This document shows, piece after piece, positions 770 to 15,966 of a DNA stretch of 24,194 bases (positions are counted from its first letter, which is position 1; each line of letters begins with the position of its first letter). Source of the DNA: an uncultured Oxalobacteraceae bacterium (lineage in GTDB: Bacteria; Pseudomonadota; Gammaproteobacteria; Burkholderiales; Burkholderiaceae); NCBI GenBank assembly GCA_946480015.1, contig CAMLIL010000089.1, positions 1-24,194 of the forward strand, read 5' to 3'. Below the pieces are notes generated by a model. That model saw only the letters and a list, made by a program, of their open reading frames with translations. It did not search any database and was not told the origin of the DNA. A program made the translations under genes and the position numbers.

Positions 770-1395
770 ACTATCCGGTGTAAAGATGATCCGCGCCACT
801 AACCACGCCTGAAGCGTATAGTTGGGAAAGGTGTCGATCGTTGATGCCATTCGTTGCTCCAGCCCACCACGTGGCGGTGCCCACTGCGGCGGCCGCGCGG
901 TGCGCGCCGGCGGGGGTCTTACGACCGGGTCGCGGCATTCGCCAGGGTATGGCGGGCGGGTCAAACTGACAGGGTCAATTCAGCTAGCAAACGAACAGGG
1001 GTAGCCCAGACTCATCGAAATAGCTGGCTGAGTCCCAGTTCAATGGATCCGGCATGTGAAGAACACATCGCCCGTTGGCCCATCCGATGGTTTAGTACGG
1101 CTTGGCGCGAGGCATGAAGCGGCTTGTCTTGGCGGGGGTATGCCGCGTGCGCGGCCATTCTTGCCCCGTTCATCCTTACGCAGCGGCACATCAAACTTCC
1201 ACGACACTTGGATCGCGCCGTTGCGCAGATGGGGACGTTGATCCCCGAACCCGTCGCTATTCTTCCCGACACTTCGTCGTCGTCGCCCTCGTGACATCTC
1301 CTGGCGTACCGCGCTCAGCCAATTCCTCGCCTGCAGACGCGCCCCCGGAGGCCCGTTCAAGAAAGCCGTTGAAACACGGTTACCGATTGAACGAA
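770..1395. other. Gene-free stretch, no supported feature
   Basis: This stretch of about 620 bases has short open frames on both strands, but none shows a recognisable domain, a convincing ribosome binding site or a protein-like composition. They overlap one another in several frames. It probably consists of old, degraded mobile-element or intergenic sequence between the repeat cluster and the first cluster promoter. I cannot assign a family to it. Confidence 0.5.
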
Positions 1396-1400
1396 TAGTA

Positions 1401-1431
1401 ACTTGCATGGTGATAGCGTCTTGTGTAGAAT
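1401..1431 (+). promoter_or_regulatory. Promoter with overlapping operator in front of the left operon
   Basis: A sigma70-type promoter is visible: TTGCAT (1403-1408), a 17-base spacer and TAGAAT (1426-1431). The -35 box lies inside the element ACTTGCATGGTGATAG (1401-1416). The same ACT-N7-TGATAG spacing recurs at 15892 and, on the minus strand, at 15335-15350 before the HxlR gene. The operator overlaps the -35 and spacer, a position suited to repression. The first recognisable coding sequence downstream is the ketosynthase relic at 1587, then the FAD oxidoreductase at 1876, so the leader is now long. Regulation by the HxlR protein is inferred. Confidence 0.6.
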
Positions 1432-1586
1432 GCCATCTGAACAAAAAATCTACGTTTCCAAATTGATATTGTTACTGAGTCAATATCGCTTGTTTTGTTC
1501 TGTCATGTTCGATGCGGCAATGCCGATCTAATCGAATCTTTTGATGGCGAACAGCGGCTCCCAGTCCGTGATGGTGGCCTGGAGTG

Positions 1587-1802
1587 ATGCACCGAGTGCT
1601 TGTGACGGGCATCGGCATTGTTTCTCACGGATTCGGGTTCGGCGGAGTCAAGGCATCGGTTCTCTTTCAGCGGTATCCCGGTGATGCAAGAACGCAGTGT
1701 GTTCATCGATGCGCTCATCGACATCGCCTGCGCGGGATCCCTGACACGTATTACCGCCCGACGGGACTTGGTAAAGCCTTTTTTTTGCGGATTAAATGCT
1801 GA
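1587..1802 (+). pseudogene. Ketosynthase relic with internal deletion
   Basis: The frame starting at ATG 1587 reads HRVLVTGIGIVS, the typical first residues of a FabF-type beta-ketoacyl synthase. It then runs directly, at about 1626, into HGFGFGGVKASVLFQR, the typical last residues of the same family. Roughly 380 residues with the catalytic Cys, His and Lys are missing and the join is in frame. The intact ketosynthase at 17352-18620 begins RRIVVTGMGMVT and ends NGFGFGGVNASLVFRR, so the two are related but not identical copies. After residue 30 the frame loses KS similarity and continues to a stop at 1800-1802. No activity can remain. It sits just behind the cluster promoter, which suggests the operon once began with a ketosynthase gene. 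Confidence 0.75.
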
Positions 1803-1830
1803 TGAAGTACACCACACCAAGTTTTTATAG
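1684..1830 (+). CDS. Short open frame of unknown meaning after the ketosynthase relic
   Basis: A 48-codon frame starts at ATG 1684, shortly after the ketosynthase similarity ends, and stops at 1830, about 45 bases before the FAD oxidoreductase. It overlaps the tail of the relic frame. No family is recognised and no strong ribosome binding site precedes it. It may be a remnant of another deleted gene or mere chance; I list it only because it fills the space between relic and operon. Confidence 0.15.
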   Translation: MQERSVFIDALIDIACAGSLTRITARRDLVKPFFCGLNADEVHHTKFL

Positions 1831-1875
1831 TTGCTGGTAAGTCCTGTTACCCATTTTCGGAAAATACATCTCTCT

Positions 1876-3261
1876 ATGTTAGACACCCTCATTGTTGGTG
1901 CCCGCTGCGCGGGTGCTACGCTTGCAATCCACCTGGCACGCGCCGGCAAGCGCGTCTTGGCGATCGATGCGAACAATCTGCCGAGCGACCAGCCGCTGTC
2001 CACGCACTTTGTTTCGCCTCGTGGCATGGCGCTGCTGGATGAGTTGGGGCTTGGTAATAAGGTGCGCAGCTTCGCCCCGCCGGTGCCGAGCATGATGTTC
2101 GGTGCTGATAATGCGCTCGGCCGAATTGTGTATCCAGCCGGCGGGAGCTGTTCCAGCCCGCGTCGTATCGATCTCGACGCAGTCTTGTTGGACGAGGCGC
2201 GCTCTTGCGGGGCGGAGGTGCGTATTCGTACCAAACTGGTGGCGCTGCTGCGCGAAGGCGAGCGCGTAACCGGCGCTGTGGTCGAACACGCAGGGGTGCG
2301 CGAGGAAATCCGGGCGCAGATCGTCGTTGGCGCCGATGGTCCTCACTCGAGCACGGCGCAACTGGTCGCCGCCGAGGAATACCACGGCTACGACTGCCCA
2401 CGCGCGCTCTACTGGGCGTACTGGCCAAAACCGGCCTGGTTCGACGACGATCCGCGCTATATGGGCGGTGCGATGAATTGCAACTTCGGCGACGACATTG
2501 TCATCATCTTTCCAACAAACCGCGATCTCTTGCTCATCGGCGTGGCATTCCCGAAAACGCAGCTGCCGGAGTGGAAAGGGAAAACGTTGCAAAAGCTTCA
2601 GGAGACGCTCCAGCGCAATCCGTTCACGGCGCCGCTGAGCGCTGGAGAGCCTGCCAGCAAGGTGCTCGGCGCACTGAATCTGCGCTTTTTTTTCCGCCAG
2701 GCGGCCGGGCCAGGTTGGGCCCTGGTCGGCGACGCTGGCCTGTTCATGGATCCGTCCCCCGGCTTCGGAATCACCGATGCCTTGCGCGACGCCGCGGCAC
2801 TGGGCCAGGCCATCATCGAGGGCGGGGACCAGGCGCTGGTGCGCTACTGGCGTCATCGAGACGCCACCTCGATCGACCTGTTCGAGTACTCCCGCAGCCG
2901 CGGCGCGCTCAACCACAACAATCCGCTTTCCCGAATTCTGTACAGCAAACTGGCTGCCGACCCGGTGCTGCAGGCACGTCTGTTCGCCGTCCAGAATCGC
3001 GAGCGGTCGCCGTTTGCCATATTCGATTTCCCCGACATCATGAACTGGGCCGACGAGGCCGTTCAGCGGGGCGAACCGGGGGTAGGTGAAGCCTTGGAGG
3101 CCATGGCCCAGCGTGGCAGGGAGGTGCGGGCCGAGATGACCTTGCGCCAGCGCCTGGCCGAGCAGGCCGATGCCATCCCGAACCAGGCATACGGGTTTGA
3201 GAACGCCGAGCCGCGCGCGTCCGCCGTTCATTTCGCTCCTGGCGTAAGGGATGCCGCATGA
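1876..3261 (+). CDS. FAD-dependent oxidoreductase / monooxygenase
   Basis: This 461-residue protein has the three signatures of group A flavoprotein monooxygenases and the related geranylgeranyl-reductase-like enzymes. An N-terminal FAD-binding fold has LIVGARCAGA (residues 5-14) and an acidic residue at the end of the second strand (D31). A DG motif, GADGPHS, lies at 152-158. A GD motif, LVGDAGLFMDPSPGFG, starts at 283. No membrane segment is evident. Such enzymes hydroxylate, epoxidise or reduce lipophilic substrates with NAD(P)H and FAD; the substrate here is unknown. I chose ATG 1876 because the protein begins there with a normal fold; its ribosome binding site is weak, and a TTG at 1831 is possible but less likely. 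Its stop overlaps the ATG of an alternative start of the next gene (ATGA), so the two are co-transcribed. Product tailoring in the polyyne-like pathway is inferred. Confidence 0.8.
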   Translation: MLDTLIVGARCAGATLAIHLARAGKRVLAIDANNLPSDQPLSTHFVSPRGMALLDELGLGNKVRSFAPPVPSMMFGADNALGRIVYPAGGSCSSPRRIDLDAVLLDEARSCGAEVRIRTKLVALLREGERVTGAVVEHAGVREEIRAQIVVGADGPHSSTAQLVAAEEYHGYDCPRALYWAYWPKPAWFDDDPRYMGGAMNCNFGDDIVIIFPTNRDLLLIGVAFPKTQLPEWKGKTLQKLQETLQRNPFTAPLSAGEPASKVLGALNLRFFFRQAAGPGWALVGDAGLFMDPSPGFGITDALRDAAALGQAIIEGGDQALVRYWRHRDATSIDLFEYSRSRGALNHNNPLSRILYSKLAADPVLQARLFAVQNRERSPFAIFDFPDIMNWADEAVQRGEPGVGEALEAMAQRGREVRAEMTLRQRLAEQADAIPNQAYGFENAEPRASAVHFAPGVRDAA

Positions 3262-3346
3262 GCACAAAGCGCGTCGCAGGGAAGCGGCGACATGTCCAAT
3301 CTGGTGATGCCCGCCCGGCATCCACAGGCCATACGTTGAGTTACCC

Positions 3347-3353
3347 AAGGAGG
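3347..3353 (+). promoter_or_regulatory. Ribosome binding site fixing the start of the fourth desaturase
   Basis: AAGGAGG lies six bases before ATG 3360. An upstream in-frame ATG at 3258 overlaps the preceding stop, but the residues it would add (34, basic and not desaturase-like) and this near-ideal site make 3360 the better start. Confidence 0.75.
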
Positions 3354-3359
3354 CAGGCT

Positions 3360-4442
3360 ATGACTATCGGCGCACCGTTAGGGGGCGAGGCCGCGTTTGC
3401 GCGGCTCAAGCTCCCTGAAAAATTTCATCGCATCAGTTCTTTCGGCACGGTACTTGTGCTCGCGCATGCCCTCGCATTCTTCCTGGTTCCGGCCATGGTG
3501 GCTTTCACCATCGTTGATCTCCCCATGTCCACGCCGGTACGCCTAGGTATGGCAGTCGTCCTGGGAATCATCGGCGGCCACGGCATGCACCTCTTGACCT
3601 TTGTAGGGCATGAGGGAATGCACATGAATCTGCACCGGAACAAGTATCTGAGTGCTGCGCTGGCGGTCCTCTTTACTTCATTGGTGCCGTTCTTCTTCAT
3701 TGTGGGCTTTAGCATGACCCACTGGAAGCATCACCGTTTTACGGGCCAGAACATTGACCCCGATGTGCAGATTTATTCGCAGTATAGGAATTTTGTGTCG
3801 CGCTTCTTTCTCGCGCGCTCTGGAACCGTTCGGATTTACCTGAAGAACGCGGCGCGCATGGCGCTGGGTCTGCCGTGGCCGGAGAACACGAAGTTGCCGT
3901 TTACGCAGAGGGAAATGCGCTGGATTACCAGGATCAACATTGCCTTAGGTTTGTGCGCCGTGACGGTGTACGCGTTCATCTGGCATCGCTCGCTGTGGCT
4001 CGGCTTCACGGTAATGCTGGCCCCGTATTTCGGCTTGTACGTGTTTAGCGCCATGCGCGCCTACATCGAGCACACGGGCACCGTACCCGGCCGATACCGC
4101 GACAGCCGCAGCTTTACATCACCCATTTACACCGCTCTTTTCTTCGGAAATAACTTCCATCTCGAGCACCACCTGTATCCGGCTGTCCCCTGTTACCGGC
4201 TGCCCGCGCTGCACGCCTACCTCGCCTCGCAGGGGCTCCACGAAGCGACGGGCGCACAGGTCGAGCGGTCGTTTTTTGGCGCGCTGCTCTATACGACCGG
4301 GCGTTTCCAGTACCCCTGCGTCGATCTGCCGTCCGCGAGCGACGACTTCCTTGAGCGCATTGCCGACGGTCGCTTCGATCGCGATGCGCCCTTGAAGGGG
4401 GCGCGCGCCAGCGACTCGATGATCGCAGGCGCGAGCGAATAG
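3360..4442 (+). CDS. Membrane di-iron fatty acid desaturase / hydroxylase (upstream block)
   Basis: A 360-residue membrane protein of the FADS superfamily with all three histidine boxes: HEGMH at residues 84-88, HWKHH at 121-125 and HLEHH at 267-271. Hydrophobic pairs before the first box (about 30-80), after it (about 96-118) and in the middle (about 190-235) fit the usual four-helix topology with the boxes on the cytosolic side. The HxxxH, HxxHH, HxxHH spacing is that of delta-12-type desaturases and related hydroxylases, acetylenases and conjugases, not of the delta-9 type. It lies outside the core set of three desaturases and is followed 79 bases later by the Rieske oxygenase gene. It could add a further double or triple bond or a hydroxyl group; the sequence does not decide. 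A longer form starting at 3258 cannot be excluded. Confidence 0.85.
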   Translation: MTIGAPLGGEAAFARLKLPEKFHRISSFGTVLVLAHALAFFLVPAMVAFTIVDLPMSTPVRLGMAVVLGIIGGHGMHLLTFVGHEGMHMNLHRNKYLSAALAVLFTSLVPFFFIVGFSMTHWKHHRFTGQNIDPDVQIYSQYRNFVSRFFLARSGTVRIYLKNAARMALGLPWPENTKLPFTQREMRWITRINIALGLCAVTVYAFIWHRSLWLGFTVMLAPYFGLYVFSAMRAYIEHTGTVPGRYRDSRSFTSPIYTALFFGNNFHLEHHLYPAVPCYRLPALHAYLASQGLHEATGAQVERSFFGALLYTTGRFQYPCVDLPSASDDFLERIADGRFDRDAPLKGARASDSMIAGASE

Positions 4443-4521
4443 ACCTATCCATCGAGCGATCCCGACCTCGTGTCGCTTGTTCCAGAACGCCGTTTGTGCA
4501 GCAAAGTGAGGAGTGAGAATC

Positions 4522-5556
4522 ATGTTTATCCAAAATGCCTGGTACGCAGCAGCCCTTTCCAAAGAAATAAAACGGGAGCCATTTGCCCGGACCATCCTCA
4601 ACGAGAAGATCGTCATGTATCGCACCTCAGCCGATCAGGTGGTCGCGCTTGAGGACCGGTGCGCCCACCGACAAGTGCCGTTGTCCCGGGGACGACTGAT
4701 CGGCGACGAGCTTGAGTGCTGGTACCATGGGCTGCGCTACGACTGCTCGGGGGAGTGTGTCAGTATTCCCAGTCAGAGCACGATCCCGAAAGGTGCGCGC
4801 GTGCGCAGCTTCCCTGCCGTCGAGAAGTACGGTTTGATCTGGGTGTGGCCGGGCGACGCGAGCAAGGCAGACGAGGGGGCAATTCCTGACCACTGGGTTT
4901 GTACTGCGCCCGAGCTCGCGGGGGCGATGAGCTACTGCACCATCGCCTGCAACTATACTTTCGGCATCGACAACATTCTCGACATCTCGCATGCCGCCTT
5001 CGTTCACGCGAAGACACTGGGCTCGCTCGACATCGTCGAAACGGCGCCCGAGATCGTGATCAACGACAACGAAATCCGCGTGTGCCGCACCATGCGCCGC
5101 GAAAAGACGCCGCCGCTCTACAGCCGTATTTTGCAGCTCGAGTACATTGATCGCTCCCAGGAAGTCCGCTACTGGCCCGTCGGCAATACGCGGGTCGAGA
5201 CGAGAGCCCATGCGTGCGACGATTCCAGCGGCAAGGTCTATCACGTCTACACGACCACGATCTTCACACCCGCGACCGAGAACACGAGCCACGTATTCGT
5301 GGGCATGCATCGCGATTTCGACGTCGACAACCAGATGTTTACCGAGTTCACCGCAAAAGAGGTGTTCTCGACCGTCATGGAGGACAAAGACGTCGCCGAG
5401 AGTCTACAGGCGAACTGGAGCCCGACGGCGCCCATGATCGACATCCACCTCGATAAACCGGCCTTCGCCGCGCGGCTGATACTGGAGCGACTGGGCGCGA
5501 GCGCCTCGATTCGGGCGGGCGGCGCGGTCATCCCTATCCAACTTAAAAAAGCATAA
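4522..5556 (+). CDS. Rieske non-heme iron oxygenase, vanillate demethylase-like
   Basis: This 344-residue protein has an N-terminal Rieske [2Fe-2S] domain with CAHR (C47, H49) and CWYH (C66, H69), and a C-terminal catalytic domain with the mononuclear iron motif NILDISHAAFVH (N151, D154, H157, H162). Length and opening (NAWYAA) match the VanA / toluenesulfonate monooxygenase branch. Such enzymes perform hydroxylations, O- or N-demethylations and desaturations, and normally need a ferredoxin-reductase partner; none is encoded in the window. A good ribosome binding site (GAGGAG) precedes ATG 4522; a GTG at 4513 lies in frame but is less likely. Four bases separate its stop from the next gene, so both are translated from one message. 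A tailoring oxidation of the cluster product is the likely role. Confidence 0.88.
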   Translation: MFIQNAWYAAALSKEIKREPFARTILNEKIVMYRTSADQVVALEDRCAHRQVPLSRGRLIGDELECWYHGLRYDCSGECVSIPSQSTIPKGARVRSFPAVEKYGLIWVWPGDASKADEGAIPDHWVCTAPELAGAMSYCTIACNYTFGIDNILDISHAAFVHAKTLGSLDIVETAPEIVINDNEIRVCRTMRREKTPPLYSRILQLEYIDRSQEVRYWPVGNTRVETRAHACDDSSGKVYHVYTTTIFTPATENTSHVFVGMHRDFDVDNQMFTEFTAKEVFSTVMEDKDVAESLQANWSPTAPMIDIHLDKPAFAARLILERLGASASIRAGGAVIPIQLKKA

Positions 5557-5560
5557 CGAT

Positions 5561-6415
5561 ATGAATGCTCTCATTGCAGAGAAAGAAACGACGGTAAACG
5601 CCCAAGGATGCGGCAAACTCTACGTCGATGAGTTGCTGTGCGAACTGGAAACGTCGGCGGACGATGAAGTCAGTGTGCGTCACCCGATGACGTTTGGGGA
5701 GGTCGTCGGCCGCGGCAGCGCGGAAGAGCTCGCCACCGCCGCGGCGGGTGTTTTTTCCAAAGTCGAGTCAAATCACAGCTGGAGCGGCATGGATATCGGC
5801 GCGCGCGAGTGGCATGGGCATTTCCAGGATCGCCGCATCCATGGGGTCACCGTGGCGCGGCGCTTCGGCAAGCGGGTACAGGTCGACATCTTCCTCGCCT
5901 CCTTCCCTGCGCCGGTTCGGCAGGCCATGCACGAGGCGTGCCGGGACCTCATCGACGTTGACGCCTGGTTGCTCCCCGCCGGGATCGACACCGCCTTGCC
6001 CCCCATCCCCGTCGACGAAGTGCTGGACCCCAAATTGCAGTTCGGCCTTGCCGATGATGTATTCCTCAGCAGCCCCGTGGCCTGCAAGCCGGTTCGCGGC
6101 GTTGCCGACGTCGAACGATTGTGCGGCCACTCCGTGATCGTCTACGAGGAGCGCGCATACGGACCGCGCCTGACGGCCGGTGGGACCACGCTCAGTATCT
6201 GGACGGGGTCGGTCGCCGGCTTGCCGCTGGAAGTGGCGAACGTCATCCATTGGAAGGATGCGCAACACGCGAAAGGCATGGCAATGGCGATGCGCCCTTG
6301 GCCCGTCGTCGAACTGTTTCAGGCACGCATGAAAGCGCGGACACTCCCGTTTCTCGATGCATCCTACTTCGAATCCGACGACCCTGCCTCTACGCACCGG
6401 ATTGGAGAGGGTTAA
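5561..6415 (+). CDS. Conserved-looking protein of unknown family
   Basis: A 284-residue soluble protein that I do not recognise. It has no signal peptide, membrane helix, obvious nucleotide-binding loop or metal-binding cysteine cluster. The middle (about residues 75-125) contains many His, Arg and Asp residues around GAREWHGHFQDRRIHG. The C-terminal part (about 195-265) has alternating hydrophobic residues as in a small alpha/beta fold. It is placed four bases after the Rieske gene and four bases before the transporter gene, so it belongs to the same message and probably to the same process. It could be an enzyme, a partner of the Rieske oxygenase or a binding protein; I cannot choose. Confidence 0.75.
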   Translation: MNALIAEKETTVNAQGCGKLYVDELLCELETSADDEVSVRHPMTFGEVVGRGSAEELATAAAGVFSKVESNHSWSGMDIGAREWHGHFQDRRIHGVTVARRFGKRVQVDIFLASFPAPVRQAMHEACRDLIDVDAWLLPAGIDTALPPIPVDEVLDPKLQFGLADDVFLSSPVACKPVRGVADVERLCGHSVIVYEERAYGPRLTAGGTTLSIWTGSVAGLPLEVANVIHWKDAQHAKGMAMAMRPWPVVELFQARMKARTLPFLDASYFESDDPASTHRIGEG

Positions 6416-6419
6416 GCAG

Positions 6420-7829
6420 ATGAACGCTCCCGTAGCTCCGGCTTTGCAGGCACAGACGCAGTCGAAGGCGACTTCGCCGTGGCCGGTTTTTTGGATCGCC
6501 AGCGTGGCCGTTTTCCTGGTGTCGATCGATGTCACTGTGCTTTACGCGGCGTTTCCGGCGTTGCGGCGGGCGTTTCCCGACGCTGGCTCGGTGAGCCTGT
6601 CGTGGATACTCAACGCGTATACGCTGCTCTTTGCTGCCTTGCTCGTACCAGCGGGCCGCTTCGCCGACCTGCGCGGACGCAAAACCACGTTTTTGCTTGG
6701 ACTTGCCGTGTTCCTGGCCGGCTCCCTTGGCTGCGGTTTGGCTGGAAACGTCGCGACGCTGATCGCGACGCGCGGTGCGCAGGGGACCGGTGCGGCGCTC
6801 TTGCTTCCGGCATCGCTGTCGATTTTGCTGGCGGCGTTCCCGGCCAATAAACGCGCGATTGCGGTGAGCTTGTGGGGGGCGGTGAGCGGGATCGCGGGTG
6901 CCTTGGGGCCCAGCGTCGGTTCTTTCCTGGTTGATCGTTTCGGCTGGCCGTGGGCGTTCTTTCTTAACTTGCCGATGGGAGCGATTGCGCTGTGGTATGG
7001 CTGGCGGATTCTCGACGAGTCGCGCGATCTTGAACGCGGCGCGCCCATCGACGTCATTGGCGTCCTGCTGCTCATCGTCGGCGTTGGTTCGATCACCTTC
7101 GGCCTGGTTCATTCCGAGGCAGCGGGGTGGAGCTCGCCGATGGTGACCCTGGCGATCGCAGGTGGGCTGGTGACGCTGGCCGCCTTCGTTCTCTGGGCGC
7201 GCAGGGTACGCGCGCCGGCGATTGATCTGTCATTGTTCCAGGACCGGACATACTGCTTCATCAATGTGGCGACGCTGTGCTTCGCGATCGGCTTCGCCAT
7301 GATGTTCTTCCAAATGTTCCTGTTCCTCACCGGTGTCTGGGCGTATTCGTTGCCGCGCGCCGGTCTGGCCGGCAGCCCTGGGCCGCTGCTCGTCATCCCC
7401 ACGGCGATTGTGTGCGGACGGATCGCCGCGCGTGCCGGCCATAAGCTGTTATTGGTCACAGGGAGCTTGATCTTCGTGGCGGGGAGCACGTGGCTCGCGC
7501 TGGTACCAGGTGTCAATCCCGATTATATGCGTGCCTGGCTGCCTGGTGCGCTACTCATAGGACTGGGTGTCGGCATGGTCATGCCTTCGCTCTCGGCTGC
7601 GGCAGTCGCGCATCTGCCGCCAGCGAAGTTCGGCGTGGGCTCGGCCGTCAACCAGGCGGTACGCCAGATGGGATCGGTGTTCGGGGTGGCGCTCACGGTG
7701 GCCGTCGCCGGCCACGGGGTGCTGGGCCTCTCCGCATTTCATACCCTGTGCTACCTGCAGATCGGCTTTGTTTTGGCCACCGCAATCCTGTGCACACCAG
7801 TCGACACGCGGCCACGGGTGAAAATTTAA
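6420..7829 (+). CDS. MFS drug/metabolite exporter, DHA2 (14-helix) type
   Basis: This 469-residue protein is hydrophobic throughout, with about 14 predicted membrane helices. The loop after helix 2 has GRFADLRGRKT (MFS motif A) and helix 5 has the antiporter motif region GALGPSVGSFLVDRFG followed by WPWAFFLNLP, as in EmrB/QacA relatives. Such proteins export lipophilic toxic compounds using the proton gradient. A ribosome binding site (GGAGAGG) precedes ATG 6420; the stop of the previous gene is four bases upstream. Its place between tailoring genes and the polyyne-type core makes export of, and self-protection from, the cluster product the natural role, though the substrate is inferred. The next gene follows after about 90 bases without an evident promoter. 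Confidence 0.88.
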   Translation: MNAPVAPALQAQTQSKATSPWPVFWIASVAVFLVSIDVTVLYAAFPALRRAFPDAGSVSLSWILNAYTLLFAALLVPAGRFADLRGRKTTFLLGLAVFLAGSLGCGLAGNVATLIATRGAQGTGAALLLPASLSILLAAFPANKRAIAVSLWGAVSGIAGALGPSVGSFLVDRFGWPWAFFLNLPMGAIALWYGWRILDESRDLERGAPIDVIGVLLLIVGVGSITFGLVHSEAAGWSSPMVTLAIAGGLVTLAAFVLWARRVRAPAIDLSLFQDRTYCFINVATLCFAIGFAMMFFQMFLFLTGVWAYSLPRAGLAGSPGPLLVIPTAIVCGRIAARAGHKLLLVTGSLIFVAGSTWLALVPGVNPDYMRAWLPGALLIGLGVGMVMPSLSAAAVAHLPPAKFGVGSAVNQAVRQMGSVFGVALTVAVAGHGVLGLSAFHTLCYLQIGFVLATAILCTPVDTRPRVKI

Positions 7830-7917
7830 TCAATTTCTGGAGCGGTGCAAACAGCGCAACGCCGGCCTGGTCTTGGCGCTGTGGTGTTTTTCCTGCAATC
7901 AGATGATGGAGTATCGA

Positions 7918-9783
7918 ATGAGGTCTGGTTTGAGCATGAGCGAAGAGACAATCCTGGTCACGGAACCGGGCGCGCAGAATATCGACATGGACGCGATTTT
8001 GCGCCGGCGCGCGGCGGCAACGCCGGACGAGCTTGCTCTGCGCTTCCTGAAAGACGGTGAAGACGACATCGTCGAATTGAGCTATCGTCAGCTCGACTTG
8101 CGTGCGGCCCGCCTGGCCCGCCGGCTGAAACGCCAGTTGAGGCCTGGAGCCCGGGTGTTGCTGGTGCTGGAACCGGGCCTGAATTACGTCACGGCACTGT
8201 TCGCCATTTTCAAGGCCGGTGCTACGGCGGTGCCCTCGTTTCCGCCGGTCGGCACGCGCGCCGTCTCACGCTTCGCCGGCATCTGCAATGATTGCAATGC
8301 GCAGTTGGTCATTGCTGAAGGCAACTTGGAAGCCCATGTCGACCGGCTCAATGCCTCACTCTCGGTGGAAGGAGATGTTCCTCAGTGGTTGTTTGTCGGC
8401 AGCGATTTTTTCGAAGCACAAGATGCTAAGCAATTAGCCGAACAGATAGATGACGAATACGACGATGAGCGGCAGGGCGAACGGTTTCCGGCGCTGCTGC
8501 AATACACGTCCGGTTCCACCGGCAATCCCAAGGGCGTGATGCTGTCTGCCGCCAACCTGATCAGCAACAGCCGCGTGCTCGACATCCGGCTTGGGGACGC
8601 GGAAAAACAGATAGGTTTTACCTGGCTGCCGCCTTACCATGACATGGGCCTGATGGGGGCGCTGTTGCTGTCTGTGTACAGTGGCTTTACCCTGGTAGTG
8701 ATGACGCCGGCTCACTTCGTGCAACGGCCGCTGCGCTGGCTGAAGGGTATGTCGACGCACCAGGTCACCACATCGGTGGCCCCCAATTTTGCGCTCGACC
8801 TTTGCGTCGATACGATTACCGATGAGGAAGTCGCGGAGCTCGACTTAAGCAGGCTCAAGATGCTGTTTTGCGGCGCCGAGCCAGTGCGGCAAGCGACGCT
8901 TGACCGATTCTCGGAAAAATTCAAACCGGCCGGATTTTCCAGCGGGGCGTTTGTGCCGTGTTATGGCCTGGCCGAAGCGACGCTGTTCATATCAGGCAAA
9001 TCTACCCACGCCGCCGCGCCCAAGACACTGCTGCTGGACCCGGAATCACTGGCCGGCGGCGTGGCCCGTCCGGCCGGCGCTGATGCGACAGCCGCAGCGA
9101 TCATCAGCTGCGGCACGGTGGCCAGCGACCACATTGTGGCGGTGGTCGATCCCGATACACAGCAACCGTTGCCGCCGGGCTCAGTTGGCGAAATCTGGTT
9201 CAAGGGTGCCAGCGTGGCGCAGGGATATCTGAATCAAGCCAAGGCCAGTGCCGAAGTATTCAATGCCTTTCTTGCTGGCGAACCCCAGGATGGCCCCTAC
9301 CTGCGTACTGGCGATCTCGGCTTCTTGCTCGACGACGAGCTGTATATCACTGGCCGCATCAAGGATGTCATCATTTTCGCCGGCCGTAACCTCTATCCGC
9401 AAGATATCGAGGCCGCAGCCCAGGCTAGCCATCGAGCCATCCGCACCAATGGCGTGGCGGCGTTTTCCGTGACGCGAGACGACGCGGAACAGCTGGTCGT
9501 GGTGGCAGAGATCTTGCGTTCAGCCAAACTCACCGGTGAAGGATTGGAAAATGTCGAAGATGCGATTGCCGCCGCCATCACCCGCAGCCACGGTCTGGCT
9601 CCCCACACTGTGCACCTGGCGCCGGTGTCGACTATTCCGTTGACTACCAGTGGCAAGGTGCGCCGCAGCGCCTGCCGCGATGCCTTCAACGCTGGCGCGC
9701 TGGCCTACGCCAAGGCCTGTCCCACGCCATCGGCGCCGGCGATGGCCGAAACCGACAGTGCCACCTGTTTCGAACAGGGGTGA
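7918..9783 (+). CDS. Fatty acyl-AMP ligase (FAAL), polyyne pathway entry enzyme
   Basis: A 621-residue member of the ANL adenylating superfamily. It shows YTSGSTGNPKG (residues 196-206, phosphate-binding loop), WLPPYHDMG (236-244), YGLAEATLFISG (349-360), the TGDLGFL segment, GRIKDVIIFAGRNLYPQDIE near residue 480, and a late SGKVRR lysine region. The HDMG and GRNLYPQDIE forms are typical of FAALs, which activate a fatty acid to acyl-AMP and pass it to an acyl carrier protein rather than to CoA. A matching carrier protein is encoded four genes downstream. In caryoynencin-type clusters the same enzyme opens the same gene order. ATG 7918 is chosen because GGAG stands six bases before it; ATGs at 7903 and 7936 are alternatives. 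Confidence 0.9.
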   Translation: MRSGLSMSEETILVTEPGAQNIDMDAILRRRAAATPDELALRFLKDGEDDIVELSYRQLDLRAARLARRLKRQLRPGARVLLVLEPGLNYVTALFAIFKAGATAVPSFPPVGTRAVSRFAGICNDCNAQLVIAEGNLEAHVDRLNASLSVEGDVPQWLFVGSDFFEAQDAKQLAEQIDDEYDDERQGERFPALLQYTSGSTGNPKGVMLSAANLISNSRVLDIRLGDAEKQIGFTWLPPYHDMGLMGALLLSVYSGFTLVVMTPAHFVQRPLRWLKGMSTHQVTTSVAPNFALDLCVDTITDEEVAELDLSRLKMLFCGAEPVRQATLDRFSEKFKPAGFSSGAFVPCYGLAEATLFISGKSTHAAAPKTLLLDPESLAGGVARPAGADATAAAIISCGTVASDHIVAVVDPDTQQPLPPGSVGEIWFKGASVAQGYLNQAKASAEVFNAFLAGEPQDGPYLRTGDLGFLLDDELYITGRIKDVIIFAGRNLYPQDIEAAAQASHRAIRTNGVAAFSVTRDDAEQLVVVAEILRSAKLTGEGLENVEDAIAAAITRSHGLAPHTVHLAPVSTIPLTTSGKVRRSACRDAFNAGALAYAKACPTPSAPAMAETDSATCFEQG

Positions 9784-9786
9784 GCA

Positions 9787-10734
9787 ATGGCCGATACTAA
9801 CCTCGCGTCAGCGGCAGCGCCTGGCGAGAACGTGCAAGCGCTCAGGGACGGCGACACTAAGGCCCGCAGGCTGGCCTACCTCACGGTACTCACGCCAGCC
9901 ATCGGTTTTGTCGTCGCGCTCTGGTATTCGATCCAGTTCGGCGTCAAGCGGCAAGACATGGTGCTGCTCGGTGTCATGTATTTCCTCACTTCGTTTGGGG
10001 TCGAGGGTGGATTGCACCGATTCTTTTCGCATCGCGCATTCAAGGCCGGAACGGTGGTGACCGTAGTCATCGGCATCATCGGCTGCATGGCGGCGCAAGG
10101 CCCGATCTTGTTCTGGGCGGCGACCCACCGCATGCACCATGTATTCACGGACCAGGACGGGGACCCGCATTCGCCCCGGGTGCTATCGCCCGGCCTGCGC
10201 GGACGCCTCAAGGCCTTGTGGCATGGACATGTAGGCTGGTTGTTTACAGTTAAACGCAGCAACTGGAGTACCTACGTACCAGACCTGTTCGGCAGCAGGG
10301 CGGTGCTATTTGTCAACCAATACTACCTGGTCTGGGTTTTCCTTGGCCTGGCGATACCGACCGCGATCGGCGCAGCGCTCAGCGGCACCGAAGGCGCAGC
10401 CGGTGGCCTGCTGTGGGGTGGCCTGGGCCGGATATTCCTGCTCGATCAGGTCACTTGGGCGGTCAATTCGATCGGCCATACCTTCGGCAAGCGGCCTCAC
10501 CAGACCAGAGACACCAGCGGCAACATCGGCTGGCTGGCGCTGGTGTCCGCCGGTGGCGGCTGGCACAACAACCACCACGCCAATCCGGCGCTGGCGCACA
10601 ACGATTTCCATTTCTGGCAAATCGACACCACCGCATGGGTCATCCGCTGTCTGGGCCTGGTCGGCTTGGCGCGGGATATCCGGCAACGCCAGAGCGCCGA
10701 TCCGCTGCACCAGAAACTTTTCAATAACGATTAG
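9787..10734 (+). CDS. Delta-9-type acyl desaturase, first of the core set
   Basis: A 315-residue membrane di-iron desaturase of the stearoyl-CoA / cyanobacterial DesC type, with HRFFSH at 77-82, HRMHH at 114-118 and HNNHH at 260-264. The conserved Asn that completes the di-iron site in this family appears in the segment NSIGH (227-231). Two hydrophobic pairs, at about 33-70 and 90-112 and again at 172-225, give the usual topology. The start lies three bases after the FAAL stop. In polyyne clusters two such enzymes follow the ligase and act on carrier-bound acyl chains to make the double and triple bonds. The position acted upon cannot be read from the sequence. The 15-base gap to the next desaturase gene implies coupled expression. 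Confidence 0.9.
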   Translation: MADTNLASAAAPGENVQALRDGDTKARRLAYLTVLTPAIGFVVALWYSIQFGVKRQDMVLLGVMYFLTSFGVEGGLHRFFSHRAFKAGTVVTVVIGIIGCMAAQGPILFWAATHRMHHVFTDQDGDPHSPRVLSPGLRGRLKALWHGHVGWLFTVKRSNWSTYVPDLFGSRAVLFVNQYYLVWVFLGLAIPTAIGAALSGTEGAAGGLLWGGLGRIFLLDQVTWAVNSIGHTFGKRPHQTRDTSGNIGWLALVSAGGGWHNNHHANPALAHNDFHFWQIDTTAWVIRCLGLVGLARDIRQRQSADPLHQKLFNND

Positions 10735-10749
10735 CGTCGGGAAAATGTC

Positions 10750-11724
10750 ATGACTACGCAAACCAATATCTCACCTCGCCAACCGGCGCGCGAGGCCGCG
10801 CCCGCACTGAGGCCCGGCGTCGCGCCGCTGACCGGCACCAGCGCCACCATCAAACAGGTCACCGCCTTGTTGGTCATGCTGGTGCCGCTGGCCGGATTCG
10901 CCGTGGCGCTGCAGCGCATGCTGGAAGGGCGCCTGTCAAGCACCGATGTGGTGCTGTTCGGCGTCTTCTATTTCCTGCATATGGGAGGCATCACGATGGG
11001 CTTCCATCGCTATCTGGCCCACAAGACATTTAGCACCTCGGCCTTGTTCGAGGGACTGCTGCTCATTTGCGGCTCCATGGCGGCCCAGGGACCGATCATG
11101 TTCTGGGTCACCACCCATCGCCGCCACCACACCTACAGCGACCAGCACGGCGATCCGCATTCCCCCAACCTGCACGGTTCCGGGCTGCTCGGCCGGCTGC
11201 GCGGCATCTGGCATGCGCACATGCCCTGGATGTTGGCCAGGGATGTCTCGGGATGGAATTTCTTTGCGCCGGATATTCTCGCAAGCCGCAAACTGTTCTT
11301 TTATCACCGCACTTACGGGCTCTGGATCGTGCTCGGCCTGGTGCTTCCAGCGGCCATCGGCGGGGCGATTGGGGGCAGCTGGGATGCCGCCTTCAGCGGA
11401 TTCCTGTTTGGTGGCTTGGCGCGGATTTTCCTGGCCAACCAGGCAGCCTGGTGCGTCGGCTCGGTGTGCCACATGATCGGCGGCAGGCCATTCAAGACCG
11501 ATGACAACAGCGCCAACAACTGGACAGTCGCCATCCTTACCTTCGGCGAAGGCTTGCAGAACAACCACCACGCATTCCCTGGATCGTACCGCCACGGTGT
11601 GAAATGGTGGGAGCCAGACCTGAGCGGCTGGCTGCTGGCCGGGCTGGGGAAAATCGGCGTGGTCTGGAACCTGCGATCGCCTGAGGAAAAAGCGATCGAA
11701 AAGATGCGCATGCGCGCGCGTTGA
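10750..11724 (+). CDS. Delta-9-type acyl desaturase with altered third histidine box
   Basis: A 324-residue relative of the preceding desaturase. The first two boxes are intact (HRYLAH 86-91, HRRHH 123-127). The third reads QNNHH (270-274) where the neighbour has HNNHH, and the segment that normally carries the metal-site Asn reads GSVCH (237-241) instead of NS..H. In the mouse SCD1 structure the equivalent His and Asn take part in iron coordination, so two positions of the di-iron site differ here. The rest of the fold, including GDPHSPN and the membrane pairs, is complete, so this does not look like decay. The changes may belong to the acetylenase or terminal-alkyne specialisation of this family; that is inference. 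The gene is followed by a 55-base gap with a strong ribosome binding site for the carrier protein. Confidence 0.9.
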   Translation: MTTQTNISPRQPAREAAPALRPGVAPLTGTSATIKQVTALLVMLVPLAGFAVALQRMLEGRLSSTDVVLFGVFYFLHMGGITMGFHRYLAHKTFSTSALFEGLLLICGSMAAQGPIMFWVTTHRRHHTYSDQHGDPHSPNLHGSGLLGRLRGIWHAHMPWMLARDVSGWNFFAPDILASRKLFFYHRTYGLWIVLGLVLPAAIGGAIGGSWDAAFSGFLFGGLARIFLANQAAWCVGSVCHMIGGRPFKTDDNSANNWTVAILTFGEGLQNNHHAFPGSYRHGVKWWEPDLSGWLLAGLGKIGVVWNLRSPEEKAIEKMRMRAR

Positions 11725-11779
11725 ACGCTGCAAAGATTTCACACACATATATTGATTCGCATTTACCCAAGGAGAAATT

Positions 11780-12112
11780 ATGTCCCAAGAAAACAAGTCG
11801 GGCGGCCTGTTCGGCTTCTTCCGCAAAGGCGCCGAAGAAGTTGAAAGCAATGGTCCGTTAAGCGAAGAAGTGATCCGCCAGTGGCTGGTCCAGCGCTTGG
11901 CCAGGCAGCTGAAAGTCGATCCGGGCATGATCGACACCGCCAGGAAATTCGAGCAGTACGGCCTCGATTCGATTGTCGCAGTACGCGTTTCCGGCGACCT
12001 GGAAAAACTGGTCGAGCAGCGACTGTCACCGGCGTTGCTGTTTGAATACCCTAGCATCGACGAGCTGGGCGCTCACCTGGCCACGGAACTCAAGCTCAAC
12101 GCCATCGCATAA
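11780..12112 (+). CDS. Dedicated acyl carrier protein
   Basis: A 110-residue phosphopantetheine carrier protein. The attachment motif is YGLDSI with Ser64; the four-helix PP-binding domain covers about residues 30-105. The first 28 residues are an extension (hydrophobic FGFF then Lys/Glu-rich) not found in primary-metabolism AcpP, and the protein is longer than the usual 75-80 residues. The start has a strong site, AAGGAG, seven bases upstream of ATG 11780. It lies between the desaturase genes, as in caryoynencin-type clusters, where the acyl chain stays bound to the carrier while it is desaturated. It must be activated by a phosphopantetheinyl transferase; the only candidate gene in the window (18955-19506) is broken. 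Confidence 0.92.
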   Translation: MSQENKSGGLFGFFRKGAEEVESNGPLSEEVIRQWLVQRLARQLKVDPGMIDTARKFEQYGLDSIVAVRVSGDLEKLVEQRLSPALLFEYPSIDELGAHLATELKLNAIA

Positions 12113-12126
12113 TCTTGGAGAAGTCA

Positions 12127-13209
12127 ATGTCGTCCGCAAAAAGTTACCCTTCATCGCCCGGGCCGGAATTCAAAGCGTTCCTGGACAAGAGCAGAGCGTT
12201 GGAAGGCGCCCGTCTGGCTGAATCGATTCCTAAATCCTATTTCGAACCGCAAGCCTGGCGTGGCCTGGCCGGGTTCTTCATCAGCTATGCGCTGTATATC
12301 GGCGCCATTGTCGGCGTCGCCTATGCGCCGCACTGGGGATTTCTTATTCCCTTGTTCATCGTTGCCGGACTGGGCGGATGGGGCTTGCATTGCATCGCGC
12401 ACGACTGTGGACACAATTCGTTCTCGCGCAACAAAAAGCTCAACATTGTGATCGGCCACCTGTCGCTCCTGCCGCTGCTGTATCCGTTCTATGCCTGGAA
12501 GCACGTGCATAACTTGCATCACTTCCATACCAACAACCTTGAAACTGATACCGACTGGCGGCCCATACCGCGCGACATGTACCAGCGTATGTCGTTCGGC
12601 CAGCGCTTTGTCTACATGGGCACCAGGACGTGGCTGTTCTGGGCCGGCACCATCAATTACTGGCTCGTGTCGGGATTCCGCCCCGGATTTTTTCCCAAGA
12701 AGGACATGCGCAGCGATGTCAGACGCTCGATCGCGTTCGTCGTGCTCGCTTCGATCGTGTATTTTTCCGCGCTCATCTACTTTACCGGCATCGCAGGCTT
12801 CTTCTTGCTGTTCTTTGCGCCGTGGATCGCGATCCACACGTGGTTCAGCGTGACCACGCTGATGCACCACACCGCGGCCGACATTCCGTTCCTGACCTCG
12901 GAACACTGGACGCCGAATGCCAGCCGCATGCTCGTCACCACCGACTATCGCTATCCGAAATGGCTGCTGTTTCTGACTCACAATATCTCTATTCATACCG
13001 CCCACCATGTTGCGCCTGTGGTGCCCTTCTATAACCTGCAAAAAGCGCAGACGGCGTTGAAGCAGGCTTATCCGGGCATGATCAGAGAAAAAGACTTCAG
13101 CTTCGGCGACCTGCTGTGGGTCATCAAGAACTGCCATTTCTATGATCTCGATTCCGGCTATTACAAGGATTCGGCGGAACAGCGAGCCGAGCTCAAGCGC
13201 GTGACGTGA
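12127..13209 (+). CDS. Delta-12-type desaturase / acetylenase of the core set
   Basis: A 360-residue membrane di-iron enzyme with HDCGH at 92-96, HNLHH at 128-132 and HTAHH at 290-294. The spacing is that of delta-12 oleate desaturases, acetylenases and the bacterial alkyne-forming enzymes. Hydrophobic segments at about 45-90, 108-122 and 200-245 complete the topology. ATG 12127 is preceded by GGAG; a TTG at 12115 directly after the carrier-protein stop is a possible but weaker start. In polyyne clusters the third desaturase follows the carrier protein exactly as here. It has the same length as the desaturase at 3360 but different box residues, so the two are not recent duplicates. The next gene begins four bases after its stop. 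Confidence 0.9.
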   Translation: MSSAKSYPSSPGPEFKAFLDKSRALEGARLAESIPKSYFEPQAWRGLAGFFISYALYIGAIVGVAYAPHWGFLIPLFIVAGLGGWGLHCIAHDCGHNSFSRNKKLNIVIGHLSLLPLLYPFYAWKHVHNLHHFHTNNLETDTDWRPIPRDMYQRMSFGQRFVYMGTRTWLFWAGTINYWLVSGFRPGFFPKKDMRSDVRRSIAFVVLASIVYFSALIYFTGIAGFFLLFFAPWIAIHTWFSVTTLMHHTAADIPFLTSEHWTPNASRMLVTTDYRYPKWLLFLTHNISIHTAHHVAPVVPFYNLQKAQTALKQAYPGMIREKDFSFGDLLWVIKNCHFYDLDSGYYKDSAEQRAELKRVT

Positions 13210-13213
13210 CGAT

Positions 13214-14155
13214 ATGACTGACTTCACTTCACCCTCGCCGCCGCTGTCGCAAATGCGGGCGGCAGCGCCGGCTCTGAGCATCGGCGCTAACTTGGCAAAG
13301 GCCGCTTACCGCTTAGGCGCGCTGCTGGCGCCAGGCCTGGCTGGCCGGCTTGCGGCCGACGCCTTCGGACGCTCACGCCGGAAAGGCGGTCGTACCTTGT
13401 TCAGGATGCCGCTGGGCGCGCAAACCTTCGAGATCATTGGCAATGAAGACGTGCGCCACGGCTATCTCTGGAAAAATCAGGGGCCTACCGTGCTTTTGGT
13501 GCACGGATGGGGTTCCGACAGCAGCAGCATGATTGGCTTGGTCAAGCCGCTGTTAGCGCTCGGTTACCAGGTAGCGTCGTTCGATGCGCCGGCGCATGGC
13601 GAATCGCCCGGTAACAAGACCACCATGACGCGCTTTGTGAAAGCGGTCGGCGCGGCCCTCAAGTCGCTCGACAATGTGCAGATAGTTATCGGACATTCGC
13701 TCGGTTCAATTGCCGCGGTGGCCGCCATCGCCCACGCTTGCCCAAGGCATGCAGAAGCCATCAAGCGCCTGGTACTGATCGCCGCCCCGGTCTCTCTTGC
13801 CACCGTGTTGGAACGCTGGTCGAACGACCAGCACCAGAAGTTTCCGCCAGCGGTGGTGAGCAAAATCTACGACCGCCTGCACGTGCAAAACGGGGTTCCG
13901 GTGAGCCACTGGGATATCAGCGTGCTGGGCGCAGCCATGGATGTGCCAGTGCTTGTGGTCCACGACGAACATGATCCGGTGGTGCCGCTGACCGAGGCCA
14001 AAAGAGTAATGAGTAGCCTGAAAAACGTGCGCCTCGAGCAGACCTCCGGTCTCGGACACAGCCGGATACTGTCGGCCGCCCCGGTCAAAGAACTGATCAC
14101 CCGCTTCATCAGCGAATCGTGTTTGACCCCAACTTTCCTGGAGCCCTTGCAATGA
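13214..14155 (+). CDS. Alpha/beta hydrolase, probable product-releasing thioesterase
   Basis: A 313-residue alpha/beta hydrolase with the nucleophile elbow GHSLG (Ser162), an acid in VVHDEHDPVVPL (Asp254) and the catalytic His in TSGLGHSRIL (His282). VLLVHGWG (93-100) supplies the oxyanion region. No signal peptide is evident; the first 50 residues are Ala-rich and may be an amphipathic lead. In caryoynencin-type clusters a hydrolase at this position releases the finished acyl chain from the carrier protein. A second hydrolase in the window (15967-16920) shares the same local motifs (PVSL after the fifth strand, VVHD, TSGLGH), so they are paralogues. Its stop overlaps the start of the rubredoxin gene, which means translational coupling. 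Confidence 0.88.
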   Translation: MTDFTSPSPPLSQMRAAAPALSIGANLAKAAYRLGALLAPGLAGRLAADAFGRSRRKGGRTLFRMPLGAQTFEIIGNEDVRHGYLWKNQGPTVLLVHGWGSDSSSMIGLVKPLLALGYQVASFDAPAHGESPGNKTTMTRFVKAVGAALKSLDNVQIVIGHSLGSIAAVAAIAHACPRHAEAIKRLVLIAAPVSLATVLERWSNDQHQKFPPAVVSKIYDRLHVQNGVPVSHWDISVLGAAMDVPVLVVHDEHDPVVPLTEAKRVMSSLKNVRLEQTSGLGHSRILSAAPVKELITRFISESCLTPTFLEPLQ

Positions 14156-14337
14156 TTGAACAAGAAACTGAATTCAAAACACTGATGTGCCTCGTGTGCG
14201 GCTGGATTTATTCGGAAAAGGATGGCGCCCCCAGCGAAGGCCTGCTGCCGGGCACCCGCTGGGAGGATATCCCGGACACCTGGACCTGCCCCGAATGCGA
14301 CGTCAAGAAAGAAGACTTCACCATGGTGGAGTTTTGA
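14152..14337 (+). CDS. Rubredoxin, electron carrier for the desaturases
   Basis: A 61-residue rubredoxin with the two iron-binding pairs CLVCG (C13, C16) and CPECD (C46, C49), and the typical acidic middle with PGTRWEDIPDTW. The ATG overlaps the hydrolase stop (ATGA). A longer reading from 14119 lies inside the hydrolase gene and is not needed. Rubredoxins hand single electrons to membrane di-iron enzymes such as alkane hydroxylases, and are present in several polyyne clusters, so supplying the four desaturases of this cluster is the likely job. The reductase that would recharge it is not encoded here and is probably the housekeeping one. It is the last gene of the plus-strand run; no clear terminator follows. 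Confidence 0.93.
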   Translation: MIEQETEFKTLMCLVCGWIYSEKDGAPSEGLLPGTRWEDIPDTWTCPECDVKKEDFTMVEF

Positions 14338-14799
14338 GCTACCGTCGTTGCGTGATCCCTGGCCGCTGCGCCGCTAATTTGCAGCAAGTGGCGGATCAGG
14401 CGAATCGAGCGGCACGAATTGTCGCGCTTGGAATCAAGCATGGCTTTCCTGCAGGGCGGGCGTGATTGTCGAGCCGGTGCAGTCAACGCGTGTCTTCTGC
14501 ACCATGTTGTCGAGTCCTTCGCGCCTGTGTGTTGGAATGGGCGCACGACGCGTTGCGCTGGCTACACGGTGAGGGTCAAAAACGCGAGCTGTTCGAAAAA
14601 ATAGCCGGATGAAGCGAAGCCATCGGCGGGCGGGTGGCGCGCTTTGTCGGCGGAGGGGGAAAACGCCGTGCAGCGGGCCTGATAAGCTGAAAAGCAATAA
14701 AAAAGTCGAGCAATGATCACGAAGCGGATCGTACAGAATCCGGAACCCCGTGCTGAAAAGCCGCGTTCTGGCGACAAAATCCGAAGGCGTGCACTCTTT
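14338..14799. other. Gap between the convergent operon end and the regulator gene
   Basis: The 460 bases between the rubredoxin stop and the stop of the HxlR gene hold no frame with a recognisable domain. I looked for a bidirectional terminator hairpin with a T-run, as expected between convergent genes, and found none that is convincing. Confidence 0.5.
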
Positions 14800-15306: not shown

Positions 15307-15334
15307 TAATAAAACCTTTCATTGATGTTGTTAA

Positions 15335-15350
15335 CTATCAATATAATAGT
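15335..15350 (-). promoter_or_regulatory. Predicted HxlR operator before the regulator gene
   Basis: On the minus strand this reads ACTATTATATTGATAG, matching the ACT-N7-TGATAG pattern of the sites at 1401 and 15892. It is part of an imperfect dyad, TTACT-N11-AGTTA. It lies about 30-45 bases before the start codon of the HxlR gene, inside an AT-rich promoter-like stretch, so it probably mediates autoregulation. Confidence 0.5.
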
Positions 15351-15359
15351 AAATTATAA

Positions 15360-15888: not shown

Positions 15889-15891
15889 ATC

Positions 15892-15922: not shown

Positions 15923-15966
15923 GGCTTCCATAATGCAATTCATCTGGCCTGCCGTGATTGTGGACA

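Follow-up and report, generated by a model that had tools for sequence, protein, structure and literature searches.

A stretch of 24,194 nucleotides from an uncultured Oxalobacteraceae bacterium (hereafter the window) carries twelve genes that, taken as a whole, are best explained as a complete collimonin-type polyyne cluster (C16, palmitate-derived) in an Oxalobacteraceae-like host. We consider this reading, with the biosynthetic steps proposed below, probable, because the 12-gene order matches that of Collimonas, the MFS exporter is kept, and an acetyltransferase and LuxRI are absent. Clusters of this kind are already known from Collimonas and Burkholderia, and the window adds one member. 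New here are the predicted tandem NTF2-like fold of a nameless protein encoded at 5561-6415, and the observation that the genes extending the core on its upstream side have a patchy distribution and do not keep pace with the core.

Gene content of the cluster

All 12 predicted genes were intact and lay on the + strand in the order FAD oxidoreductase, desaturase 4, Rieske oxygenase, 5561-6415, MFS, FAAL, desaturases 1 and 2, ACP, desaturase 3, hydrolase and rubredoxin (Pfam scan and motif check). Pfam gave FAD_binding_3, FA_desaturase, Rieske with VanA_C, no match for 5561-6415, and MFS_1 for the first half, and AMP-binding, two FA_desaturase, PP-binding, FA_desaturase, alpha/beta hydrolase and rubredoxin for the second. 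The conserved motifs were present as well, namely the desaturase His boxes, Rieske CxH..CxxH, the 2-His-1-Asp site, the ACP Ser, two rubredoxin CxxC and GxSxG. This confirmed the gene order and gene identities of the initial annotation. Its gaps of "a few bases" apply to most of the 11 intergenic spaces but not to three of them (-4, 79, 4, 4, 106, 3, 15, 55, 14, 4 and -4 bases with the likely start codons; -4 to 15 apart from 79, 106 and 55), and the first gene begins near 1876, not at 1401.

The second part of the operon is the bacterial polyyne cassette that had been recognised there. PMC8406139 describes this cassette as seven genes (FAAL, ACP, three desaturases, thioesterase and rubredoxin), and by its description the caryoynencin (cay) and protegencin (pgn) clusters have a seven-gene core like that of the window. 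All seven genes were found with intact Pfam domains and motifs: the fatty acyl-AMP ligase (FAAL, 7936-9783; AMP-binding), whose nearest NCBIfam families were fatty-acid--AMP ligases, every one below its cut-off; core desaturases 1 (9787-10734) and 2 (10750-11724), both FA_desaturase with His boxes, one of those in the latter being QNNHH; the acyl carrier protein (11780-12112; PP-binding, DSI serine); core desaturase 3 of the MasH/CcnN/PgnH type (12127-13209; FA_desaturase), 94-96% identical to Collimonas clusters; an alpha/beta hydrolase or thioesterase (13214-14155; Abhydrolase_1, GHSLG); and rubredoxin (14152-14337; Rubredoxin E 8.5e-21, two CxxC).

Two more likely cluster genes lie beyond 1401-14337 on the + strand. 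A MasK-like alpha/beta hydrolase (15967-16920), 1629 bases downstream, is 68-71% identical to the hydrolase that follows rubredoxin in three massilin-type clusters, and in the remaining 13 stretches its top matches were at 27-31%. A FabF-type ketosynthase (KS, 17352-18620; TIGR03150 522.7 bits, cut-off 493.75) is a possible cluster gene. A KS heads the operon in two Collimonas and six cepacin-type clusters, at 60-62% identity to the window KS, which belongs to another lineage than the KS of the compared clusters. A promoter and terminator scan of 1300-2000 found nothing, and promoter matches in 14250-15990 were near chance level. A plasmid search returned three records, all from Cupriavidus, with short matches confined to 15004-15306.

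The window resembles collimonin clusters most closely

The same 12 genes occurred in the same order in two Collimonas genomes at 76-96% identity, and by inference these loci are the collimonin cluster. One of them (G405) appears from its inferred strain to be Collimonas fungivorans Ter331 with gene cluster K, collimonin (col); it has 12/12 genes in the same order at 76-94% identity, keeps the MFS gene and has no acetyltransferase in the stretch examined, as in the window. PMC9098870 gives this very pattern for col, with the MFS exporter kept and acetyltransferase absent, and the window combines a C16-group extension and a retained MFS gene with no acetyltransferase match. The two loci differ in that the KS heads the col operon but lies downstream in the window, at only 62% identity, and in the MasK-like hydrolase, which has a best match of 29% in col. 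In the trees, the nearest rows to the core genes by path were Collimonas-genus genomes, in agreement with a collimonin-type grouping, and a branch supported 100/100 joined the window core to the collimonin and massilin types.

Six cepacin-type (ccn) loci from Burkholderia and Caballeronia also showed the 12-gene order (L001-L004, L037 and L038), one of them from a species named as a cepacin carrier in PMC8406139. Their extension is 65-84% identical to that of the window, whereas FAAL is 49-53% identical (84% for Collimonas clusters) and the thioesterase 47-51%. LuxR and LuxI are present in 6/6 and a thiolase in 5/6 of these loci, and the window has neither; LuxR/LuxI gave no match in the window, which covers only 1.9 kb upstream of the operon. 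The three massilin-type (mas) stretches (G1076, G1100 and G1146) share desaturase 4, the Rieske gene, the NTF2 gene, the seven-gene core and the MasK-like hydrolase with the window, but have a thiolase and lack the FAD gene, MFS and KS; no FAD relative was found genome-wide in massilin-type genomes at E <= 1e-20. The massilin pattern, with MFS lost and the masL acetyltransferase present, is not that of the window, which has an MFS gene and no thiolase match.

These comparisons also bear on the initial expectation that a new combination of Rieske oxygenase, flavoprotein, desaturase and nameless protein makes a differently oxidised, undescribed polyyne. The window KS of another lineage and the massilin-like MasK-like hydrolase mean that the product could differ in detail. 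However, the 12-gene order and identities match Collimonas and cepacin-type clusters, from which the same gene set is known, so that the extension is not new and an undescribed polyyne is very unlikely.

The upstream genes belong with the core

Recurrence of the identical gene order in other genomes excludes a chance arrangement. Strong full-length relatives of 5561-6415 (E < 1e-140) stood beside the core in 6/6 genomes in one search, four of these six being the sources of loci already chosen for comparison, and in 5/5 genomes in another. Both surveys scored up to six candidates per genome, at which depth weak relatives can escape; in 15 Collimonas-genus genomes every candidate was scored. The core-side position of the strong relatives across genomes shows that the upstream genes belong with the core, as first annotated, and rules out that they are merely adjacent. 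A close core desaturase (E <= 1e-90) was present in 8/392 genomes from the Collimonas family. The core search with a tally of the Rieske and 5561-6415 pair, run in part, placed the pair in five of these eight genomes and found it absent from three.

The Rieske oxygenase takes the place of a P450

In caryoynencin, late oxidation is carried out by a P450. The initial annotation had a Rieske oxygenase in this role, and our comparison bears this out. The Rieske gene (4522-5556) occupies the masB position and is 82-84% identical to massilin-type, 81-84% to cepacin-type and 87-90% to Collimonas homologs. The dioxygenase gene masB hydroxylates polyyne when co-expressed in E. coli (PMC9098870), and because the window gene lies at the same position with 82-84% identity, we conclude that it takes the place of the P450. 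The protein has the features of DdmC/VanA-type Rieske oxygenases (cluster motif, 2-His-1-carboxylate site, VanA_C domain), and DdmC was its nearest solved structure.

The neighbouring fourth desaturase (3258-4442; FA_desaturase E 2.6e-29, three His boxes) lies at the masA position and is 68-86% identical to its col, mas and ccn homologs. The predicted MFS exporter (6420-7829; DHA2/EmrB-like, MFS_1 E 4e-42) is 76-82% identical to Collimonas and cepacin-type homologs and has no match in the massilin-type stretches.

The first gene of the operon (1876-3261; FAD_binding_3 E 3e-26) encodes an FAD-dependent oxidoreductase resembling PHBH and geranylgeranyl reductase, a candidate epoxidase. It might instead be a double-bond reductase, which is possible though doubtful: its best NCBIfam match was the geranylgeranyl reductase superfamily, below cut-off, and source names include menaquinone-9 beta-reductase, but its nearest PDB chains were mostly FAD halogenases and monooxygenases/hydroxylases, and the distribution of the gene, in 8/16 cluster genomes that are all collimonin- or cepacin-type, follows oxygenated-polyyne clusters.

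Protein 5561-6415 is a predicted tandem NTF2-like protein

The structure model of 5561-6415, which lies at the masC position, had a pLDDT of 89.8 and a pTM of 0.86, and each half matched NTF2-like folds. The protein is predicted to be built of two NTF2-like domains in tandem, a fold class to which epoxide-opening enzymes such as Lsd19 belong. Because of this fold class and the neighbouring Rieske and flavoprotein genes, we propose that it may open an epoxide, a proposal that is as yet unproven. Both halves share the NTF2-like (SnoaL-type) fold class with Lsd19, MonBI/MonBII and MupZ, and the genes are likewise paired with one for a flavin or Rieske oxygenase. According to PMC8827043, MupZ follows MupW, a Rieske enzyme, and Lsd19 follows Lsd18, a flavin epoxidase, and the catalytic acid/base pair of Lsd19 is Asp and Tyr. 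Residues E83, D109, Y195 and E224 of 5561-6415 are shared by 90% or more of the aligned rows. Foldseek aligned Lsd19 and MonBI-MonBII over 262-282 columns, but with TM 0.25-0.26 and rmsd of about 18, and the halves are packed differently from those of Lsd19 (TM 0.26). MupZ was not among the structural matches listed, no significant sequence match to the Lsd19, MonB or MupZ epoxide hydrolases was found, and hhalign of one half against the other was negative (Prob 2.5). DUF3445, the name that a source gives to P0030, was rejected: a Pfam scan of 47 members with a threshold of E <= 10 did not return it, and each of the four families listed hit a single member (best E 0.026). Among the papers listed from a literature search that covered few subscription journals, the only one naming polyynes concerns lagriamide, and none was found to link polyynes with an NTF2-like protein.

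Alternatively, 5561-6415 could carry or stabilise the polyyne, or serve the Rieske oxygenase as an accessory or beta-like subunit, which is quite possible although it is not the reading we prefer. A gene of this type adjoins a Rieske gene in 11/11 strong cases. An RHO beta subunit fits the fold class, though none was among the 50 structural matches listed, and DdmC, the nearest solved relative of the Rieske protein, is presumably a homotrimer without a beta subunit. Moreover, two genomes (G270 and G354) keep the Rieske gene while the adjoining NTF2-type gene is broken, although that Rieske is only 40-41% identical; the sequence between Rieske and FAAL there, which at first resembled an NTF2 gene of half the size, proved to be a broken remnant that lacks a usable start. 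Collimonin C/D formed without a 5561-6415 homolog (PMC9098870), which favours a role other than epoxide opening.

Proposed pathway

In PMC9098870, core-gene mutants trace an ene-triyne acid to homologs of FAAL, ACP, the three desaturases, thioesterase and rubredoxin, and co-expressing masB in E. coli shows that MasB converts this acid to collimonin C/D, which bear C6-OH and C7-OH; the polyyne mass moves from 241.1234 to 273.1132, a gain of two oxygens. The change from C16H18O2 to C16H18O4 is compatible with desaturation, epoxidation and water addition, and equally with two hydroxylations. By analogy, the seven-gene core of the window would yield the ene-triyne acid, which the Rieske protein 4522-5556 would convert to collimonin C/D as MasB does. 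Desaturase 4 and the FAD protein might introduce further unsaturation or an epoxide, which 5561-6415 might open to a diol or lactone, like MupZ after MupW or Lsd19 after Lsd18, and the MFS protein would export the product.

Extension and core diverge unequally

Mean identity of the seven core genes was 79-92% between collimonin and massilin types vs 49-75% between collimonin and cepacin types, whereas that of desaturase 4, the Rieske gene and the NTF2 gene was 70-85% vs 72-86%. Given this mismatch with the core and their patchy occurrence, the extension genes seem to have been exchanged or lost separately from it. The trees compared 12 clusters with the extension and five without, and omit the distant core-like loci L060 and L061 (G670 and G429), a second copy that is broken (L059) and the remote relatives L039-L043. 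A rather unlikely alternative is that extension and core were always co-inherited, with faster core evolution between the cepacin-type and collimonin-type lineages and several independent losses of the extension. Evolutionary rates do differ between genes, the NTF2-type remnant in G270 and G354 is itself a loss, and the number of compared clusters is limited, but the contrasting identities of core and extension speak against it. Also unlikely is the stronger proposal that the Rieske, NTF2-like, FAD and desaturase-4 genes form an epoxidation and opening cassette, with 5561-6415 as the opening enzyme, exchanged as a unit between polyyne core lineages.

Taken together, these results sharpen the question of which genes give collimonins and cepacin their oxygen functions. 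The NTF2-like prediction and the finding that, of the clusters compared, only those of collimonin and cepacin type have the FAD gene bring this question within reach of a few gene deletions. If true, epoxide opening by 5561-6415 would account for the vicinal diol of collimonin C/D.

The window cluster is a collimonin-type polyyne cluster by gene content

Twelve intact genes lie on the plus strand of the window from ~1876 to 14337, which confirmed the gene set seen in the initial annotation, and its gene labels were upheld by Pfam matches. With likely starts, the intergenic gaps are only -4 to 106 bases, so that transcription as one or a few transcripts is plausible. A promoter scan of window positions 1300-2000 gave nothing sigma-70-like, and a tRNA search of the window was negative. 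A partial IS66-type transposase (2-406, minus strand) stands at the start, adjoined by short repeats of the kind ATCTCAACTTATGTGAGA at 540-740, which were seen by eye. An HxlR-type regulator (14800-15306, minus strand), with which short plasmid matches in Cupriavidus coincide, separates the rubredoxin (Rd) gene from that of a MasK-like hydrolase. Downstream of the cluster, a berberine-bridge-type FAD oxidase (20146-21690, minus strand), a GH30 glycosidase (22064-23293) and a MAPEG protein (23466-23861) were left unlinked to it.

The window was compared with 16 gene stretches by tblastn. Two Collimonas genomes, G405 and G981, have the order KS-FAD-Des4-Rieske-unknown-MFS-FAAL-Des-Des-ACP-Des-TE-Rd (KS, ketosynthase; Des, desaturase; TE, hydrolase/thioesterase), and, KS aside, their twelve genes share 76-96% identity with those of the window. 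We infer that G405 is strain Ter331, because PMC4690342 reports cluster K, among six Collimonas genomes, as complete in Ter331 only, with part of it in Ter6 and none of it in the other four. The window FAAL shares 85% identity with a protein filed as Collimonas fungivorans, and the window core groups with Collimonas-genus genomes on the core tree; both would point to an Oxalobacteraceae-like host. Judged from its sequence, the cluster is of the collimonin type, because its MFS gene is kept and no acetyltransferase was found in the window, the pattern given for col in PMC9098870. LuxR and LuxI were looked for in the window DNA and not found.

Two features set the window apart from the Collimonas clusters. 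Its downstream hydrolase is massilin-like, with 68-71% identity to the three massilin-type clusters and a best match of 27-31% in the other 13 stretches. Its KS (17352-18620) belongs to another lineage: it is a FabF with 60-62% identity to the eight KSs heading the Collimonas and cepacin-type operons, which are 83-100% identical to one another, and it could be a substitute for the operon KS or a spare FabF. G405 also holds a second core copy (locus L059, 8518-9885) that is broken and partial (FAAL end, split desaturase, desaturase fragment) and lies a long way from the complete one. Xenorhabdus sp. IM139775, a gammaproteobacterium, has a FAAL filed under its name (P0063) with 80% identity to that of the window, which suggests transfer or contamination.

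Among steps outside the core, Rieske hydroxylation has the best support

The twelve genes of the window recur in unchanged order in six cepacin-type loci, all of which carry LuxR and LuxI. One of them is from Burkholderia (Caballeronia) peredens LMG 29314, a species listed among carriers of the cepacin cluster in PMC8406139. With KS, the genes number 13, equal to the published count for the cepacin cluster, which PMC9518984 describes as one operon of 13 genes with luxRI upstream. The three massilin-type clusters read Des4-Rieske-unknown-FAAL...Rd-hydrolase with a thiolase further down, and tblastn of these stretches found no FAD gene, MFS or KS. Counted by letter, this order, thiolase included, is consistent with masA to masL. 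PMC9098870 names masB (dioxygenase), masD (FAAL), masH (desaturase), masJ (rubredoxin) and masL (acetyltransferase); the remaining letters are our own assignment.

According to the same paper, insertions in masD, masE, masF, masH and masI abolished polyynes, mutation of masJ lowered them, and biosynthesis was unaffected in masK and masL mutants. E. coli carrying masD to masJ, with masH replaced by a Burkholderia homolog, produced massilin C, and addition of masB yielded collimonin C/D, in which C6-OH and C7-OH are present (PMC9098870). Of the steps outside the core, hydroxylation by the window Rieske protein (4522-5556) thus has the best support, because this protein is 82-84% identical to the masB-position protein. 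Its closest solved structure is the dicamba O-demethylase DdmC. The initial annotation had proposed oxidation by a Rieske-containing set and a possibly undescribed polyyne: Rieske oxidation was supported, and an undescribed polyyne was not, as the 12-gene order recurs in Collimonas and cepacin-type loci.

Eight of the 16 cluster genomes have the FAD gene, and each of these eight is of collimonin or cepacin type; the other eight gave no match at E <= 1e-20. In a search of a large protein set with the FAD protein (best 120 of 426 matches from a capped candidate set, short fragments left out), the nearest 31 relatives besides the window were 71-86% identical, and those named included Collimonas, Burkholderia, Trinickia and a Saccharimonadales MAG. 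Beyond them, among the same 120, came single rows at 62-63% and then a broad family at <= 57%. The protein may be an epoxidase; its profile also resembles geranylgeranyl reductases. An NTF2-type protein (P0025) and an FAD protein (P0189) are both filed under the Candidatus Saccharimonadales MAG, probably from a misbinned contig.

Close relatives of the nameless protein adjoin the core

Strong full-length relatives of the nameless protein (E < 1e-140) were found in 6/398 genomes of the cepacin loci's family, four of them genomes of loci already compared, and in 5/392 genomes of the Collimonas family (centred on G405). All 11 adjoin the core. A close core desaturase occurred in 8/392 genomes, three of which, all of G405's genus, lack the nameless gene and have other Rieske genes (47-52%). 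These three Collimonas-genus genomes (loci L073, L075, L077) have the core without the upstream extension, and their Rieske genes stand after rubredoxin (47-49%), with one more before FAAL in L073 (52%); a different hydroxylation pattern is possible there. In the G270 and G354 clusters, the Rieske gene is 40-41% identical and the nameless gene survives as a decayed remnant. In polyyne clusters of this kind at L035 and L036 (9900-13730), the Rieske gene is a distant one, with thiolase and acyl-CoA thioesterase genes upstream of it, and a decayed NTF2-type remnant precedes FAAL; the Pfam matches come from L035, and the thiolase was seen at both loci.

Distant full-length relatives (29-32%), some 5-7 kb from FAAL-ACP-KS genes (five genomes; L039-L043), mark loci that are possibly alkyne-type, and three of these matches contain an in-frame stop. 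At L042, the neighbouring ORFs tested gave aconitase only. In further genomes, proteins matched the C-terminal half only (E 3.5e-12 to 9.7e-4), which is what one NTF2-like domain on its own should give.

The extension and the core differ in their pattern of identity

The core tree comprised 17 clusters, 12 with the extension and five without, and required four changes in extension presence, at least three by starred branches. Forcing the 12 into one clade was rejected (AU p 2.5e-38), as expected for a set that occurs on both deep branches. In 177/500 shuffles of the labels the result was as good, so the tree shows no clustering of extension presence. Mean identity of the seven core genes was 79-92% between collimonin and massilin clusters versus 49-75% between collimonin and cepacin clusters, whereas Des4, Rieske and the nameless gene gave 70-85% versus 72-86%. 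On the extension-only tree, the three groups still separate. Unequal rates are a possible source of this contrast between extension and core; our reading is that the extension would have been exchanged between core lineages after their split, with losses. PMC9098870 proposes that horizontal transfer was followed by a deletion event and that ccn was the first to branch off.

Taken together, the window cluster is complete and belongs to a known kind of polyyne cluster. What is new is a predicted fold, tandem NTF2-like, and a testable candidate role for its nameless protein (5561-6415).
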